Source: a virus
DNA: 63,582 nucleotides
IMG/VR virus record: IMGVR_UViG_3300036846_000316
Coordinates: 1-63,582 of that record
Strand: one strand, 5' to 3'
Part shown: positions 41,065 to 62,690 of the stretch, in pieces
Position numbering within the stretch: position 1 is the first letter of the stretch
How the letters are laid out: each line of letters starts with the position of its first letter
The notes under the pieces: generated by a model
Database searches by the model: none
What the model was told of the DNA's origin: nothing
The model's input: only the letters and a program-made list of their open reading frames with translations
Program-made: the position numbers and the translations under genes

Positions 41065-41086
41065 CGTCCCTCCATGCGTCGGGGGA

Positions 41087-41103
41087 TCACGCCCGGGGCG
41101 TGA
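41087..41103 (-). promoter_or_regulatory. 17-bp palindrome, copy 11 (C centre in the transcript)
   Basis: Exact copy in the short gap between capsid and fiber genes, 22 bases upstream of the fiber start (41064). Confidence 0.9.
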
Positions 41104-41125
41104 TCCCTGCGCCGTCAGAGGACCC

Positions 41126-53243: not shown

Positions 53244-53317
53244 TGGAGTGAGCGGCAGGAATTGAACCTGCGTCTTCGGGATCACAACCCACTGCTCTAC
53301 CTCTGAGCTACGCCCAC
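53244..53317 (-). tRNA. tRNA-His (GTG)
   Basis: 74 bases including CCA. Acceptor GTGGGCG/CGCTCAC, D-arm GCTC...GAGC, anticodon loop TTGTGAT (anticodon GTG), T-arm GCAGG-TTCAATT-CCTGC. The anticodon stem has one G-A mismatch. The base before position 1 is C, so there is no encoded G-1, a trait known in many alphaproteobacterial tRNA-His. Discriminator is T. A palindrome copy lies one base upstream of its 5' end. Confidence 0.85.
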
Positions 53318-53318
53318 G

Positions 53319-53335
53319 TCACGCCCGGGGCGTTA
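53319..53335 (-). promoter_or_regulatory. 17-bp palindrome, variant copy 13 (TAA form)
   Basis: One substitution: on the minus strand TCA becomes TAA, which is the stop of the GIY-YIG-like gene. The motif ends one base before tRNA-His. Confidence 0.9.
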
Positions 53336-54809: not shown

Positions 54810-55601
54810 ATGTCTAAGGTTGTTAAGAAGTCTGCAAAGAAGATTGATCACGCCCCGGGCGTGACGGACGCCCCGCACATGAAGAACGTTGTGCTGACCG
54901 CTCCCGTTGGCATCGCTGGCATTGTGCCAACGAAGCCTGTCACGAACATGGAAGGCGGTTCGCTCGTCAAGGCGATTGCCAACGATGCGAAGATACAGAT
55001 TGCGCAAGGCAAGAACGCGCTTCTCCGCATGGCTCCCTACATTTCGGCCGTTGCGGCGGGCGAGATCAAGGACATTGACGCGGATGCGAAACCGCTCCTG
55101 AACAAGGTGCGTGACGCTATCGTGGCTCATCGCGCGTCGCTTGTTCCGCCGGATACGCGCGAGGTGGCGGAAGTGTCGACCACGCGCAGCGGCGAGTTTA
55201 AGCACGTTCTGCGCCTTGGCACGTACGCGTGCCACAAGGACGTTATCGCCATGTTTGACGGGTACGACGTCAATCTGGACAACGTCGTGACGATTGCGAA
55301 ATTCATTGCGGAGACCGTCAAGGAAAAGAACGGTCCGGCCCCCGCACGCGAGGCGGTCTTTGCCAAGCTTGCGGAACGCAAGGGTTCGCGTCGTGGTTCG
55401 GAAGGCATGGCGGGTGACGAAGCCCAACCGACGAAGCCTGCAGGTGCCGTGCTGAAAGGCATCGGCAAGCGCGTCGACGGTTGGCGCTTGTGGTTCGGGC
55501 TTCCGAACGCGAGCAAGGTCAAGGACGAAGCATCCGCCAAGCTTGACGAACTGAAGGGTTTGCTGGCCAGCATTGAACGCTTGGCCAAGGCGGTACCCTG
55601 A
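54810..55601 (+). CDS. Hypothetical early protein, palindrome in N-terminus
   Basis: 263 residues. The N-terminus is Lys-rich, followed by a long alpha/beta region and a helical C-terminus. Codon choice is less GC-biased than the neighbours, so it may be recently acquired. A second palindrome copy (54848-54864) is read in frame as HAPGV. GAAAGGA precedes ATG 54810. A double terminator follows. Function unknown; it is a single-gene unit. Confidence 0.6.
   Translation: MSKVVKKSAKKIDHAPGVTDAPHMKNVVLTAPVGIAGIVPTKPVTNMEGGSLVKAIANDAKIQIAQGKNALLRMAPYISAVAAGEIKDIDADAKPLLNKVRDAIVAHRASLVPPDTREVAEVSTTRSGEFKHVLRLGTYACHKDVIAMFDGYDVNLDNVVTIAKFIAETVKEKNGPAPAREAVFAKLAERKGSRRGSEGMAGDEAQPTKPAGAVLKGIGKRVDGWRLWFGLPNASKVKDEASAKLDELKGLLASIERLAKAVP
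54848..54864 (+). promoter_or_regulatory. 17-bp palindrome, copy 15 (C centre)
   Basis: Exact copy 119 bases after copy 14, in the opposite centre orientation; the two flank the start codon of the 263-residue gene. Confidence 0.9.
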
Positions 55602-55611
55602 TACAACGAAC

Positions 55612-55642
55612 GGGAGCGGCAGAAATGCCGCTCCCTTTTTTT
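55612..55642 (+). terminator. Intrinsic terminator 1 after the 263-residue gene
   Basis: GGGAGCGGCA, loop, TGCCGCTCCC, then seven T. A textbook terminator. Confidence 0.95.
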
Positions 55643-55660
55643 GCCTGCGATTTATCCTAT

Positions 55661-55692
55661 CCCCCCGCGCCGCAAGGCGACGGGGGATTTTT
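55661..55692 (+). terminator. Intrinsic terminator 2
   Basis: CCCCCGCGCC-GCAA-GGCG(A)CGGGGG followed by ATTTTT. Together with terminator 1 it isolates the 263-residue gene from the next unit. Confidence 0.85.
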
Positions 55693-55696
55693 GCGT

Positions 55697-55713
55697 TCAC
55701 GCCCCGGGCGTGA
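55697..55713 (+). promoter_or_regulatory. 17-bp palindrome, copy 16 (C centre)
   Basis: Exact copy directly after the double terminator and before the AT-rich non-coding region; no gene starts within 450 bases. Confidence 0.9.
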
Positions 55714-56178
55714 GATCGGGTCGGCACGCGCGGAATTAAATCAGGCACTCAGAAACTACATGTGCAGCCCAAGCTTTACGCAAGAACTGCACGGAGTGTA
55801 CACTCCGGCAGTGCACATAAAACCGTGTGTATTCAAGGCGTTAGCGTAACTGTACATGGCCAGATGTTCACTTAATTAAATACCAACCCATTGATATTAC
55901 TGCATAATCTGGGGAACTGCATATAATATAACTGTATATGTGAATAGAGAGTATATAGGGGGGTGTCTACCCTAGCACCCTAACTAATAATACGGCTAGG
56001 GTCGTAGGGTAGACACCTCCACGCCTCTTATCTTTTCGTTTCCATGTACACTTCCGCGCACCACGCTAACACGTTGGTGCAGAACGCTAATTCGCGCCGA
56101 TATCTGCACATGAGCACCGTGAGTAGATACCTGTGCAGTTCGTCAATGCTGACCCTAACAATTAAAACTGAGGGATTT
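55714..56178. other. 465-base AT-rich non-coding region
   Basis: The largest gene-free gap. It is AT-rich relative to the rest, with TATAAT (55922) and 'GTATATAGG', a short stem around 55790-55820, and a 13-bp inverted repeat at 55962-56017. The latter contains four CCCTA/TAGGG units. No convincing protein frame is present. It is a candidate replication origin or strong early promoter region; I see no other strong origin candidate. Confidence 0.6.
55962..56017. repeat. 13-bp inverted repeat with CCCTA units
   Basis: GGTGTCTACCCTA (55962-55974) and TAGGGTAGACACC (56005-56017), 30-base spacer holding further CCCTA and TAGGG words. Confidence 0.8.
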
Positions 56179-56656: not shown

Positions 56657-56932
56657 ATGTCAAAGTACATCGTCGGCTACAGTGCCAGTCTCTTGCTGGC
56701 GCTCGGTATCTTCATGCCGAGTGACAACCTAAGCACCAGTCTGGCCAAGCTATGGCTAGCCGGGCTGGGCACCGCCCTGATCTACGTCTTCATCGCCATC
56801 ATGGTGCTGGAGGAACGGGGAAGCAGCACTCAGCACGACGCACAACGTCACCGCGCAGGTATGCGCGGCGCTGGATATGTCGACGCTTCGCGTCGGCGCA
56901 TGTCGTCCCGCATGATGCGGGGCATGGAGTAA
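56657..56932 (+). CDS. Small membrane protein
   Basis: 91 residues. Hydrophobic segments at about 5-20 and 30-50, then a basic Arg/Met-rich cytoplasmic tail. AGGA lies upstream of the ATG. Function unknown. Confidence 0.6.
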   Translation: MSKYIVGYSASLLLALGIFMPSDNLSTSLAKLWLAGLGTALIYVFIAIMVLEERGSSTQHDAQRHRAGMRGAGYVDASRRRMSSRMMRGME

Positions 56933-58269: not shown

Positions 58270-58393
58270 GCACTCAGAATTTTGGCGTCTCGCGAGCGGG
58301 GGCGGAGCCCACGTATAGCGAGCGAGCGTAAGTGTACAGGTGTACCGGGCCACGCGGAACAGTGGATGCAATGTAAACTGATTGGATACTAAA

Positions 58394-59110
58394 ATGTCTA
58401 CCAAGATGGTACGGCGGGCAATGCTGCTCGCATTGATGGGAATGGTCCCTGCAGTGGCCCTTGCGAAGGGCGGTGGAGGCTCAGGTGGTGGCTCTGGTGG
58501 CGCTGGCGGTGGCAGCGGTGGCAGCGGTGGTGGCGGTTCGGGCGGCAGCGGCGGGAGCGGTGGCGGCTCGGGCGGCGGCTCAGGCGGCGGTGGAGGCGGA
58601 TCGGGTGGCGGCTCTGGCGGGTCTGGTTCCGGTGGTTCGGGCGGCTCCGGTGGCGGCTCGGGCGGCGGTGGTGGCAGCGGTGGCGGCTCAGGTGGCGGTG
58701 GAGGCGGCTCGGGCGGCGGTTCAGGCGGCGCTGGTGGCGCTGGTGGCGGTAGCGGTGGCGGCGGCTCTGGCGGTGGGTCCGGCGGCGGCTCAGGTGGCAG
58801 CGGGTCCGGTGGATCAGGAGGCGGCGGTGGCGGCGGCTCAGGCGGCGCTGGCGGTGGTGGCAGTGGCTCTGGTGGCGGCTCTGGCGGTGCTGGCAGCGGC
58901 GGCGGCGGGGCTGGCGCTGGTGGCGGAGGCTCGGGATCGGGCGCGTCCGGCGGCGCTGGCAGCGGCGGCGCTGGTGCTGCTGGCGGCACTGGCTCTGCTA
59001 GTGGCGGCGCTTCTGCCAGCAGTTCATCTAGTGGCAGCGCGGCTGACGGAGTGAACGACGTCAACGCCTACTTCAGGCAGCGTCGCTATCGTCTGTCGGT
59101 CCCGCAATAA
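58394..59110 (+). CDS. Secreted Gly/Ser-repeat protein
   Basis: 238 residues. Signal peptide 'MVRRAMLLALMGMVPAVALA', then about 180 residues of almost pure Gly with regularly spaced Ser (GGGSGGSGG type) and occasional Ala, then a Ser/Ala-rich stretch and a short C-terminal segment 'DVNAYFRQRRYRL'. It is the most extreme composition in the genome. Possible roles include a flexible surface polymer or an exported decoy; no family recognised. The opposite strand is open as poly-Pro but that is a shadow. Confidence 0.7.
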   Translation: MSTKMVRRAMLLALMGMVPAVALAKGGGGSGGGSGGAGGGSGGSGGGGSGGSGGSGGGSGGGSGGGGGGSGGGSGGSGSGGSGGSGGGSGGGGGSGGGSGGGGGGSGGGSGGAGGAGGGSGGGGSGGGSGGGSGGSGSGGSGGGGGGGSGGAGGGGSGSGGGSGGAGSGGGGAGAGGGGSGSGASGGAGSGGAGAAGGTGSASGGASASSSSSGSAADGVNDVNAYFRQRRYRLSVPQ

Positions 59111-60959: not shown

Positions 60960-60988
60960 TGGGGCGGCTTCGGCCGCCCCATTCATTA
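60960..60988 (+). terminator. Terminator-like UUCG hairpin
   Basis: TGGGGCGGC-TTCG-GCCGCCCCA, a 9-bp stem with a stable tetraloop, followed by a weak T-run (TTCATT). Probably a terminator. Confidence 0.65.
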
Positions 60989-61050: not shown

Positions 61051-61890
61051 ATGTCAGTGGCCAAGGCACACGCGGCGATGACCAGCCCACTATCGACCCC
61101 GTCACCGCACGACAATCTCGAACCCTTCAGGCAAAGCTTCTTCGACCAGTGTGAACAGTTCGGCAGCAACGCCGGGGCAGGTGACACGTCGAAGGTTGGC
61201 TGGTTTCAGGCGACATGTGAAGCGGCGTGGCAAGGCTACGTGTCGCCGGGCGCGCGCCGCAAGCCGGGCGATCCGCCCAACGATGCCGAGATCGCCTACA
61301 CGCGCTACGCCAACGCCCGCCAGAAGAAAGCGGGCGAGTTGGGCCGCAAGCTGCAGGGTGCCGATCCCAAGAACACCGACTATCGTACGCGGGTCAACGA
61401 AGCCAACACCATGATCAAGCTGGGCTCGATGCCAATCATCCACGACACCGATCAGGGTGGGCTGGGCGTGTTCAATCGCACGCTGCAGATCATCCGCACG
61501 ACCGAGGAGATCAAGGGTCAGGTCGACGACATGCTGCTCAACATTGCGCGCGCCCAGTTCGACAAGCCCGACGTGCCGCTCAATGACGACGAGATCAGGC
61601 AGGTGCTGATCCCCGAGAAGGAGGACGACAAGCCGCCGACGCCCGAGGTCGAACTGTGGGGTAACGTGATGCGCCAGATCGAGAGCATCATGCACAAGAA
61701 ATTCCCCGAGACGTCGGGCACCAGTCAGGATGCCAAGACGGCACTCAATGCCACGATCCGCCAGATCGACAAGCTGGGTGGCACGGCGGCCATGGCCAAG
61801 GCGCGCGCCAAGGCGGCAGAGAAGGACGCCAAGGACAAGGCGGCGCGGCAGGTGCAGCGGCAAGGCGCGCGAAAAGGTAAAAAGAAGTAA
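61051..61890 (+). CDS. Hypothetical early protein
   Basis: 279 residues, largely helical and ending in a very basic Lys/Arg/Ala-rich tail (about 245-279) suggestive of nucleic-acid binding. GGAGG precedes the ATG. Own candidate promoter. No family recognised. Confidence 0.6.
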   Translation: MSVAKAHAAMTSPLSTPSPHDNLEPFRQSFFDQCEQFGSNAGAGDTSKVGWFQATCEAAWQGYVSPGARRKPGDPPNDAEIAYTRYANARQKKAGELGRKLQGADPKNTDYRTRVNEANTMIKLGSMPIIHDTDQGGLGVFNRTLQIIRTTEEIKGQVDDMLLNIARAQFDKPDVPLNDDEIRQVLIPEKEDDKPPTPEVELWGNVMRQIESIMHKKFPETSGTSQDAKTALNATIRQIDKLGGTAAMAKARAKAAEKDAKDKAARQVQRQGARKGKKK

Positions 61891-61894
61891 CGAG

Positions 61895-62065
61895 GTCTGA
61901 CGCCCGTCCGCCTACAGACGGACAGACCAAGCAATGCCCGGCTGGGGATAAGACCGAGAAGCCGGGTGTGGATGGGGGTGGCGAGTAGCCGTCTAAGGGG
62001 ATCACATCCCGATGACGTTAGCCACCCCCGTTCGTGGTCACGCACTCGGCGCAGGTATGCGCCGA
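61895..62065 (+). ncRNA. Candidate structured RNA with multiple hairpins
   Basis: Four consecutive foldable elements in a gene-free gap: GTCTG...CAGAC enclosing GTCCG/CGGAC (61895-61927); CCCGGCT/AGCCGGG (61937-61966); GGGGGTGGC/GCCACCCCC (61974-62029) enclosing GGGAT/ATCCC; and TCGGCGCA/TGCGCCGA (62046-62065). A palindrome copy follows. No protein frame of interest. Candidate small RNA, riboregulator or leader of the gene at 62133. Confidence 0.5.
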
Positions 62066-62082
62066 CGTGTACAACGGGGCGT

Positions 62083-62099
62083 TCACGCCCCGGGCGTGA
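62083..62099 (+). promoter_or_regulatory. 17-bp palindrome, copy 20 (C centre)
   Basis: Exact copy at the end of the hairpin-rich segment and 33 bases upstream of ATG 62133. Confidence 0.9.
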
Positions 62100-62132
62100 C
62101 ATGTGAACCCAATGACAAGTGAGGATTGTACA

Positions 62133-62690
62133 ATGCAGGCCAAGCCAGCAACCAAGGAGTTCGTCGAATGGCTCCGCAAGAATGTCGGCGAGTTGATCCC
62201 GATGACCAAGAAGCTGATCGCCAGTGGTGAGCCGCATGTGCCCGCGCTGTTCGTCTTCCCCAAGGACGGCGAACTCAGCGTGCAGATCATGTCGATGGCT
62301 CCGTTCTTCGAGGCCGGGACAGAAGGCAAGGACTTGGTGTCGATGCTCCATCAGAAGGTCGGCGAGGACGATGAGGTCGAGTGCGCCGTGCTGGTGGTCG
62401 AAGCCTACGTGATCCACGCCAAGATCAACGACCCGCGCGCCAAGGAGATCGACATGACCAAGTCTCTCGCCGATCACCCAATGCGGGAAGAAGCGGTGAC
62501 GTTCAACGCCATCAACCATGGCATGCAGTTGATCGCGACCTACATCATCAAGCGACCGGACAACACGATCAACGACACATGGGATCACCTGATGGACCCG
62601 CGCGTCGGCATCCTCGAAGGCGAGGGGGCGGGCGAAGGCGTGACCGCTGCCGTCGGTCGCATGGTGCTGGACGACCGCAACATTCACTAG
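62133..62690 (+). CDS. Hypothetical early protein
   Basis: 185 residues, alpha/beta. GAGGA lies ten bases upstream of ATG 62133. No family recognised. It is followed by a string of coupled small genes that runs through the window junction. Confidence 0.6.
   Translation: MQAKPATKEFVEWLRKNVGELIPMTKKLIASGEPHVPALFVFPKDGELSVQIMSMAPFFEAGTEGKDLVSMLHQKVGEDDEVECAVLVVEAYVIHAKINDPRAKEIDMTKSLADHPMREEAVTFNAINHGMQLIATYIIKRPDNTINDTWDHLMDPRVGILEGEGAGEGVTAAVGRMVLDDRNIH

Follow-up and report, generated by a model that had tools for sequence, protein, structure and literature searches.

What kind of genetic element is encoded by a hairpin-dense, non-coding segment lying between two phage genes, and does it act as RNA or as DNA? 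The question is raised by positions 61895-62099 of the window, that is, the whole stretch of 63,582 nucleotides analyzed here, taken from the IMG/VR record IMGVR_UViG_3300036846_000316. The source is an uncultivated soil phage; the ends of the 63.6-kb record overlap by about 190 bases, indicating that the genome is circularly mapping, and terminase comparison places Rhizobium phage RHph_TM3_14A (52% identity) closest among named phages. Searches of Pfam and PHROG returned no family for either flanking protein (279 and 185 aa), and the predicted fold of the 279-aa protein was of low confidence (pLDDT of 51) and was therefore left unused.

The sense strand of 61895-62099 has a minimum free energy of -115.1 kcal/mol. 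The 200 dinucleotide shuffles average -83.9 +/- 4.7 (z = -6.64) and none was as low; a comparison with shuffled sequence had been proposed in the initial annotation. The minus strand folds more weakly (z = -4.53). With z = -5.2, the segment is the most strongly structured of the 39 post-stop regions in the genome, for which the mean is -0.4 and the sd 1.3. The earlier claim that the hairpin density exceeds anything else in the genome holds after G+C correction, where 61901-62100(+) ranks first of 2,536 200-nt windows on both strands (z = -3.69), but not by raw energy, for which several GC-rich coding windows are lower. The individual structures named at that stage were all recovered: a 9-bp stem GGGGGTGGC/GCCACCCCC enclosing a hairpin (61974-61982 with 62021-62029), an 8-bp hairpin with a GGTA loop (62046-62065), and a 17-bp palindrome copy at the end of the segment (62083-62099).

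The flanking proteins, used as baits against viral contigs and named phages, yielded no relatives, and a long exact pattern from the element had no matches. A MoxR-like ATPase encoded a few kilobases downstream led to a 65-kb relative, IMGVR_UViG_3300013297_000004 (G013, locus L034; ATPase identity 86%), which is syntenic with the window through this region. Its intergenic segment matches the window only over 61925-62039; it lacks both small hairpins (61906-61923 and 62046-62065), and a palindrome copy follows directly after the element. The initial description needs correction in one respect: conservation is limited to 61925-62039, and the flanking small hairpins and palindrome are separate elements. 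It consists of two stacked things, a conserved RNA on the plus strand and a set of window-specific small hairpins with one palindrome copy:

61051..61890, + strand: upstream gene, 279 aa, with homologs in G013, G014, G015, G016 and G017
61906..61923, + strand: small hairpin GUCCG/CGGAC 5' of the element, alone no more than chance (z = -0.9)
61925..62039, + strand: conserved RNA element, a three-way junction (P1 closing stem, P2 hairpin, P3-P4 arm), with the same fold at L034:5288-5401
62046..62065, + strand: hairpin TCGGCGCA-GGTA-TGCGCCGA
62083..62099, unstranded: copy of the 17-bp palindrome TCACGCCC(C/G)GGGCGTGA, a genome-wide repeat
62133..62690, + strand: downstream gene, 185 aa from its ATG, with an orthologue in G013 (47% identity)

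A pattern search by loop letters only (GAGTAGCCNNCTAA ... GTTAGCC) added two contigs, L039 (G018) and L040 (G019), and a relaxed viral pattern returned 42 stretches with no additional genuine member. Because the outer stem was absent from the pattern, it provides an independent test: the matches have 8-12 perfect outer pairs in four distinct contigs (the window, G013, G018 and G019) and 0-2 in all others, without overlap. The single match in a bacterial genome lacked the outer stem and was attributed to chance. Another candidate relative, L033, was rejected, as it has one palindrome in common with the window and no sensible match otherwise. A DNA search of named phages with three members as query gave chance matches only, and the element was found in no isolated phage; likewise, a covariance model did not detect it in distant relatives, including RHph_TM3_14A. 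Each record holds one significant copy. The four members are a lower bound, since the collections searched may omit records near the window's own genome, and two of them (the window and G013) are syntenic relatives.

The window (z = -5.3) and G013 (z = -5.1) have a three-way junction in common, and eight of its pairs, spread across P2, P3 and P4, have changed on both sides. G013 retains all 10 pairs of P2, 5 of them with both partners altered. Of the 13 pairs in P3, one differs on both sides and three on a single side; in P4 the UAGC/GUUA helix is invariant, while two of the next three pairs show double changes. When all four sequences are counted, 97.4% of cells are paired, nine pairs carry double changes and the covariation score is 0.596. 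Each of these values was reached by none of 500 shuffles, and sliding the partner columns as a control destroyed the covariation signal, with far lower values. Furthermore, when the window was left out of the model, its copy was still recovered, scoring 49.2 bits (E = 4.6e-8) against 20.8 bits for the next match. The covariation analysis called for by the initial annotation, with its nine double-change pairs, thus bears out the description of the segment as structured RNA.

In all four members, folding of the sense strand is favored over that of the antisense strand by 9-15 kcal/mol, and one G-U pair is kept in every one of them; this combination indicates RNA rather than a DNA cruciform or a product of the opposite strand. 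The cores measure 62, 63, 70 and 72 nt, lengths incompatible with a reading frame as the cause of conservation. Compensatory changes in excess of both shuffled and slid controls, together with a strand-specific fold, are the general hallmarks of a conserved structured RNA, and it is near certain that a real sense-strand RNA with a conserved fold exists here, not a DNA signal. The packaging or replication signal suggested earlier is disfavored by the variable genome positions of the element, its constant sense orientation and a G-U pair that is meaningful in one RNA strand only. A search of the window against Rfam 15 at the gathering threshold found no family, and at permissive E-values the window copy, L034 and L040 gave chance-level matches far below threshold. 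The RNA family is absent from Rfam. Its parts in the window are as follows:

61934..61969, + strand: P2 hairpin, 61934-61943 pairing with 61960-61969, loop GGGGAUAAGACCGAGA
61970..62033, + strand: P3-P4 arm, the part common to all four phages and covered by the leave-one-out model match
61970-61982/62021-62033, + strand: P3
61983-61985, + strand: GAG bulge
61986-61989/62017-62020, + strand: UAGC and GUUA, in P4
61990, + strand: bulged C
61991-61993/62014-62016, + strand: GUC and GAC
61994-61996/62011-62013, + strand: internal loop, UAA and GAU
61997-62010, + strand: apical hairpin, variable

The recurrent core therefore reads GAG bulge, UAGC-GUUA, bulged C, NNC-GNN, UAA-GAU internal loop and variable hairpin. 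In the four-sequence alignment, the invariant letters cluster in the bulges and the intervening helix, and about 10 conserved letters are unpaired. The P2 hairpin and the three-way junction are based on two sequences, those of the window and G013, and P1 is uncertain, as G013 permits alternative pairings. The string 'GAUAAGAC' occurs both in the P2 loop of the window and in the apical loop of G018, a possible common motif that is too short to claim.

The genomic context of the element is constant in kind and variable in place. It is always sense to the adjacent genes, lying directly after one gene (about 2-35 nt from the stop codon) and before the next (about 8-94 nt from the start codon) in the four members, and its genome position varies by phage. 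In the window and G013, it is located 3' of the 279-aa gene. The G018 copy, on a fragment from a relative whose terminase is 74% identical, starts a few nucleotides after the stop of the major capsid gene, and the ATG of the next gene lies about 16 nt past the stem. In G019, a 57-kb phage with few genes in common with the window and no detectable terminase homolog, it is found 3' of an AAA ATPase gene.

The same positions were compared in phages related to the window. Behind the 279-aa gene, folding exceeds that of shuffles in all five phages examined (z = -2.1 to -4.6). Strong hairpins of unrelated sequence occupy this site in G014, G015 and G017 (z = -4.3, -2.7 and -2.1, the excess being modest in the latter two), and no copy of the element was detectable in these three with the covariance model. 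Behind the major capsid gene, a strong hairpin is present in seven of seven phages (the window, with its site at 41065-41125, L029, G013, L039, L028, L030 and L021), and the sequences are largely unrelated. This site is taken by the palindrome with a site-specific stem extending it in the window, G010 and G013, by the RNA element in G018, by other hairpins in G009 and G012, and by an intrinsic terminator in RHph_TM3_14A. Scoring a fixed stretch of 150 nt after the window capsid gene gives little excess over shuffles (z = -0.9), and the capsid argument accordingly rests on the individual hairpins, not on the shuffle excess. The common factor at these positions is strong RNA structure, not a particular sequence.

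That structure is kept at a position while the sequence is unrelated is the main reason for reading the element as an intercistronic mRNA element serving 3'-end protection, processing or protein docking, an explanation in which we place about even confidence. It probably serves phage mRNA as an intrinsic means of control or protection. The segment would then be the intergenic part of a polycistronic phage mRNA and the element would be cis-acting. Through its stem, the element may determine how the upstream message is processed or where its 3' end falls, either by blocking 3' exonucleases or by presenting a cut of the RNase III type, and the upstream and downstream genes could consequently be expressed at different levels. 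This effect of the stem may in turn be modulated through the invariant bulges, to which a protein could dock or a tertiary contact could be made. That the bulges and internal loop of the P3-P4 arm hardly vary suggests a further, specific partner; the helix letters, too, are more constant than an RNase barrier would need, so that a specific ligand may be the main point. Hairpins at a position are not proof of an effect on mRNA decay. Judged by its sequence, the irregular hairpin architecture is compatible with a candidate RNase III processing site. An intrinsic terminator combines a GC-rich stem with a U-tract, and the 3' flanks of all four members are without T-runs.

Several known systems offer parallels. 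The RNase III signals of T7-like phages and the sib site of lambda are irregular long hairpins with asymmetric loops, situated between or behind phage genes. The element resembles them in its irregular long hairpin and its position between or behind genes; they are not known to have the GAG / C / UAA-GAU letters. REP/PU and other bacterial intercistronic hairpins stabilize mRNA. The element shares with REP/PU a strong hairpin between genes of one transcript, shortly after the upstream stop codon, but it is single-copy per genome, has conserved bulges and an internal loop, and is not a repeat; members of REP and palindromic-repeat families have many copies per genome, in contrast to the one significant copy per record found here. 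The evolution of REP has been treated previously (PMC3116915). Likewise, covariation has revealed structured RNAs behind genes among candidate 3'-UTR RNAs such as the L17 downstream element (Weinberg et al. 2010, PMC2864571). The L17 downstream element is a separate family, and no Rfam model matches the element described here.

Other explanations deserve consideration. The GAG bulge and the UAA/GAU loop might be bound by a protein of the phage, perhaps one encoded by a flanking gene, thereby repressing or activating translation of the next gene or mediating put/nut-like terminator readthrough. Processive antitermination RNAs such as put and nut make RNA polymerase resistant to downstream terminators. 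The concentration of invariant letters in the bulges and the helix between them, the proximity of the next start codon (8-94 nt) and the occurrence of the element in the largely unrelated phage G019 would all suit this idea. However, the flanking genes differ among G018, G019 and the window, linking no single regulated or protein gene to the element, and the predicted folds leave the Shine-Dalgarno regions unpaired with the element itself; we consider this explanation somewhat unlikely. An intercistronic or 3'-UTR element is more likely than the structured leader or small RNA proposed in the initial annotation, because hairpins at the position are kept in distant relatives with unrelated sequence and the element follows the upstream stop by only about 2-35 nt in all four members. 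A 5' leader riboswitch would be expected between a promoter and a single regulated class of gene; in the window, neither promoter room nor a consensus match is seen after that stop, a test that would miss phage-specific promoters, and the next genes differ in kind. An independently transcribed, trans-acting small RNA would agree with the stable compact fold and the single copy per record, but is improbable, as the same short distance leaves hardly any room for a promoter, and the variable apical loop is without a conserved seed. Neither a sigma-70-type promoter (phage-specific promoters would escape) nor a sense-strand intrinsic terminator with its T-tract was recognizable beside the element in the window region.

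Riboswitches and ribozymes usually display highly conserved internal-loop letters amid variable helices, and the element has this appearance. Nevertheless, a riboswitch or new self-cleaving ribozyme is quite improbable: no Rfam class was matched at permissive thresholds, known ribozymes and riboswitches included, the conserved unpaired letters are few, and the neighboring genes are of no common type. Least of all do we favor ordinary strong hairpins of a GC-rich phage, of no specific function and similar through shared ancestry. The high G+C content and the syntenic relationship of two of the four members would fit, but the double compensatory changes, the presence of the element in a largely unrelated phage, its occurrence at non-orthologous positions and its first rank genome-wide make this reading highly improbable. 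A more far-reaching and rather doubtful proposal is a new functional phage RNA class, in which the GAG bulge and UAA/GAU loop fold would have a dedicated partner or its own chemistry and would form a module moving between unrelated phages, able to replace simple hairpins behind highly expressed genes. The intercistronic mRNA element remains our preferred explanation.

The palindrome that closes the segment lies outside the RNA element, which is found without it in G018 and G019. The left half of the palindrome also pairs as 62075-62092 (CGGGGCG-TTCA-CGCCCCG). About 21 copies are distributed over window 1157-62099, between and inside genes (e.g., at 2482, 9206, 16399, 41087, 47480 and 62083). 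Twenty of them lie in intervals that also hold the G013 palindrome, spelled TTACGCCC.GGGCGTAA; about 15 were mapped individually, and 5 fall in one broad unaligned interval (window 54.7-59.1 kb), where the match is at the interval level only. In G010, a relative with approximately 90% identity, the site corresponding to 41087 behind the capsid gene has TTCCCCGTACGGGGAA in place of the palindrome, and three further copies of TTCCCCGTACGGGGAA are found in G002 near 54.7-55.7 kb. Sites recognized by a regulator that has changed would be expected to show this combination of conserved positions and concerted respelling, as in Cluster A stoperators (PMC6550527), and the palindromes look like an operator or stoperator-like network coevolving with a putative regulator. 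Comparable sets of many short sites between or inside genes are the 17-bp dyad repeats of Cluster O mycobacteriophages, whose function is unknown (PMC4351075), and the stoperators of Cluster A mycobacteriophages, whose consensus differs among related phages (PMC6550527). Unlike stoperators, the palindrome here is symmetric.

Additional features were observed elsewhere in the window. A hairpin at 56851-56868 has the same GCGCA-GGTA-TGCGC center as that at 62046-62065 with other outer pairs; the two may represent a second small dispersed hairpin family, which was not seen in G013. A very stable hairpin, TGGGGCGGC-TTCG-GCCGCCCCA (60960-60981), separates the 191-aa gene from the 279-aa gene, so that the latter is bracketed by strong hairpins. 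The long intergenic region at 55601-56165 is AT-richer, with several strong inverted repeats and an intrinsic terminator at 55612-55641, and is a possible early promoter or origin region. The ORF at 58382-59110 encodes a long Gly/Ser-rich low-complexity repeat. A single tRNA-His gene, with anticodon GTG, lies at 53244-53317 on the minus strand and is adjoined by a palindrome copy at 53319-53335.

Structured RNAs in phage mRNAs are poorly catalogued beyond a few model phages. The element described here has a compact, searchable signature and is present at sites that are not orthologous, in soil phages that are for the most part unrelated. Together with the hairpins at equivalent sites, it points to a general habit of these phages, namely the placement of strong RNA structure, of any sequence, directly 3' of certain genes.
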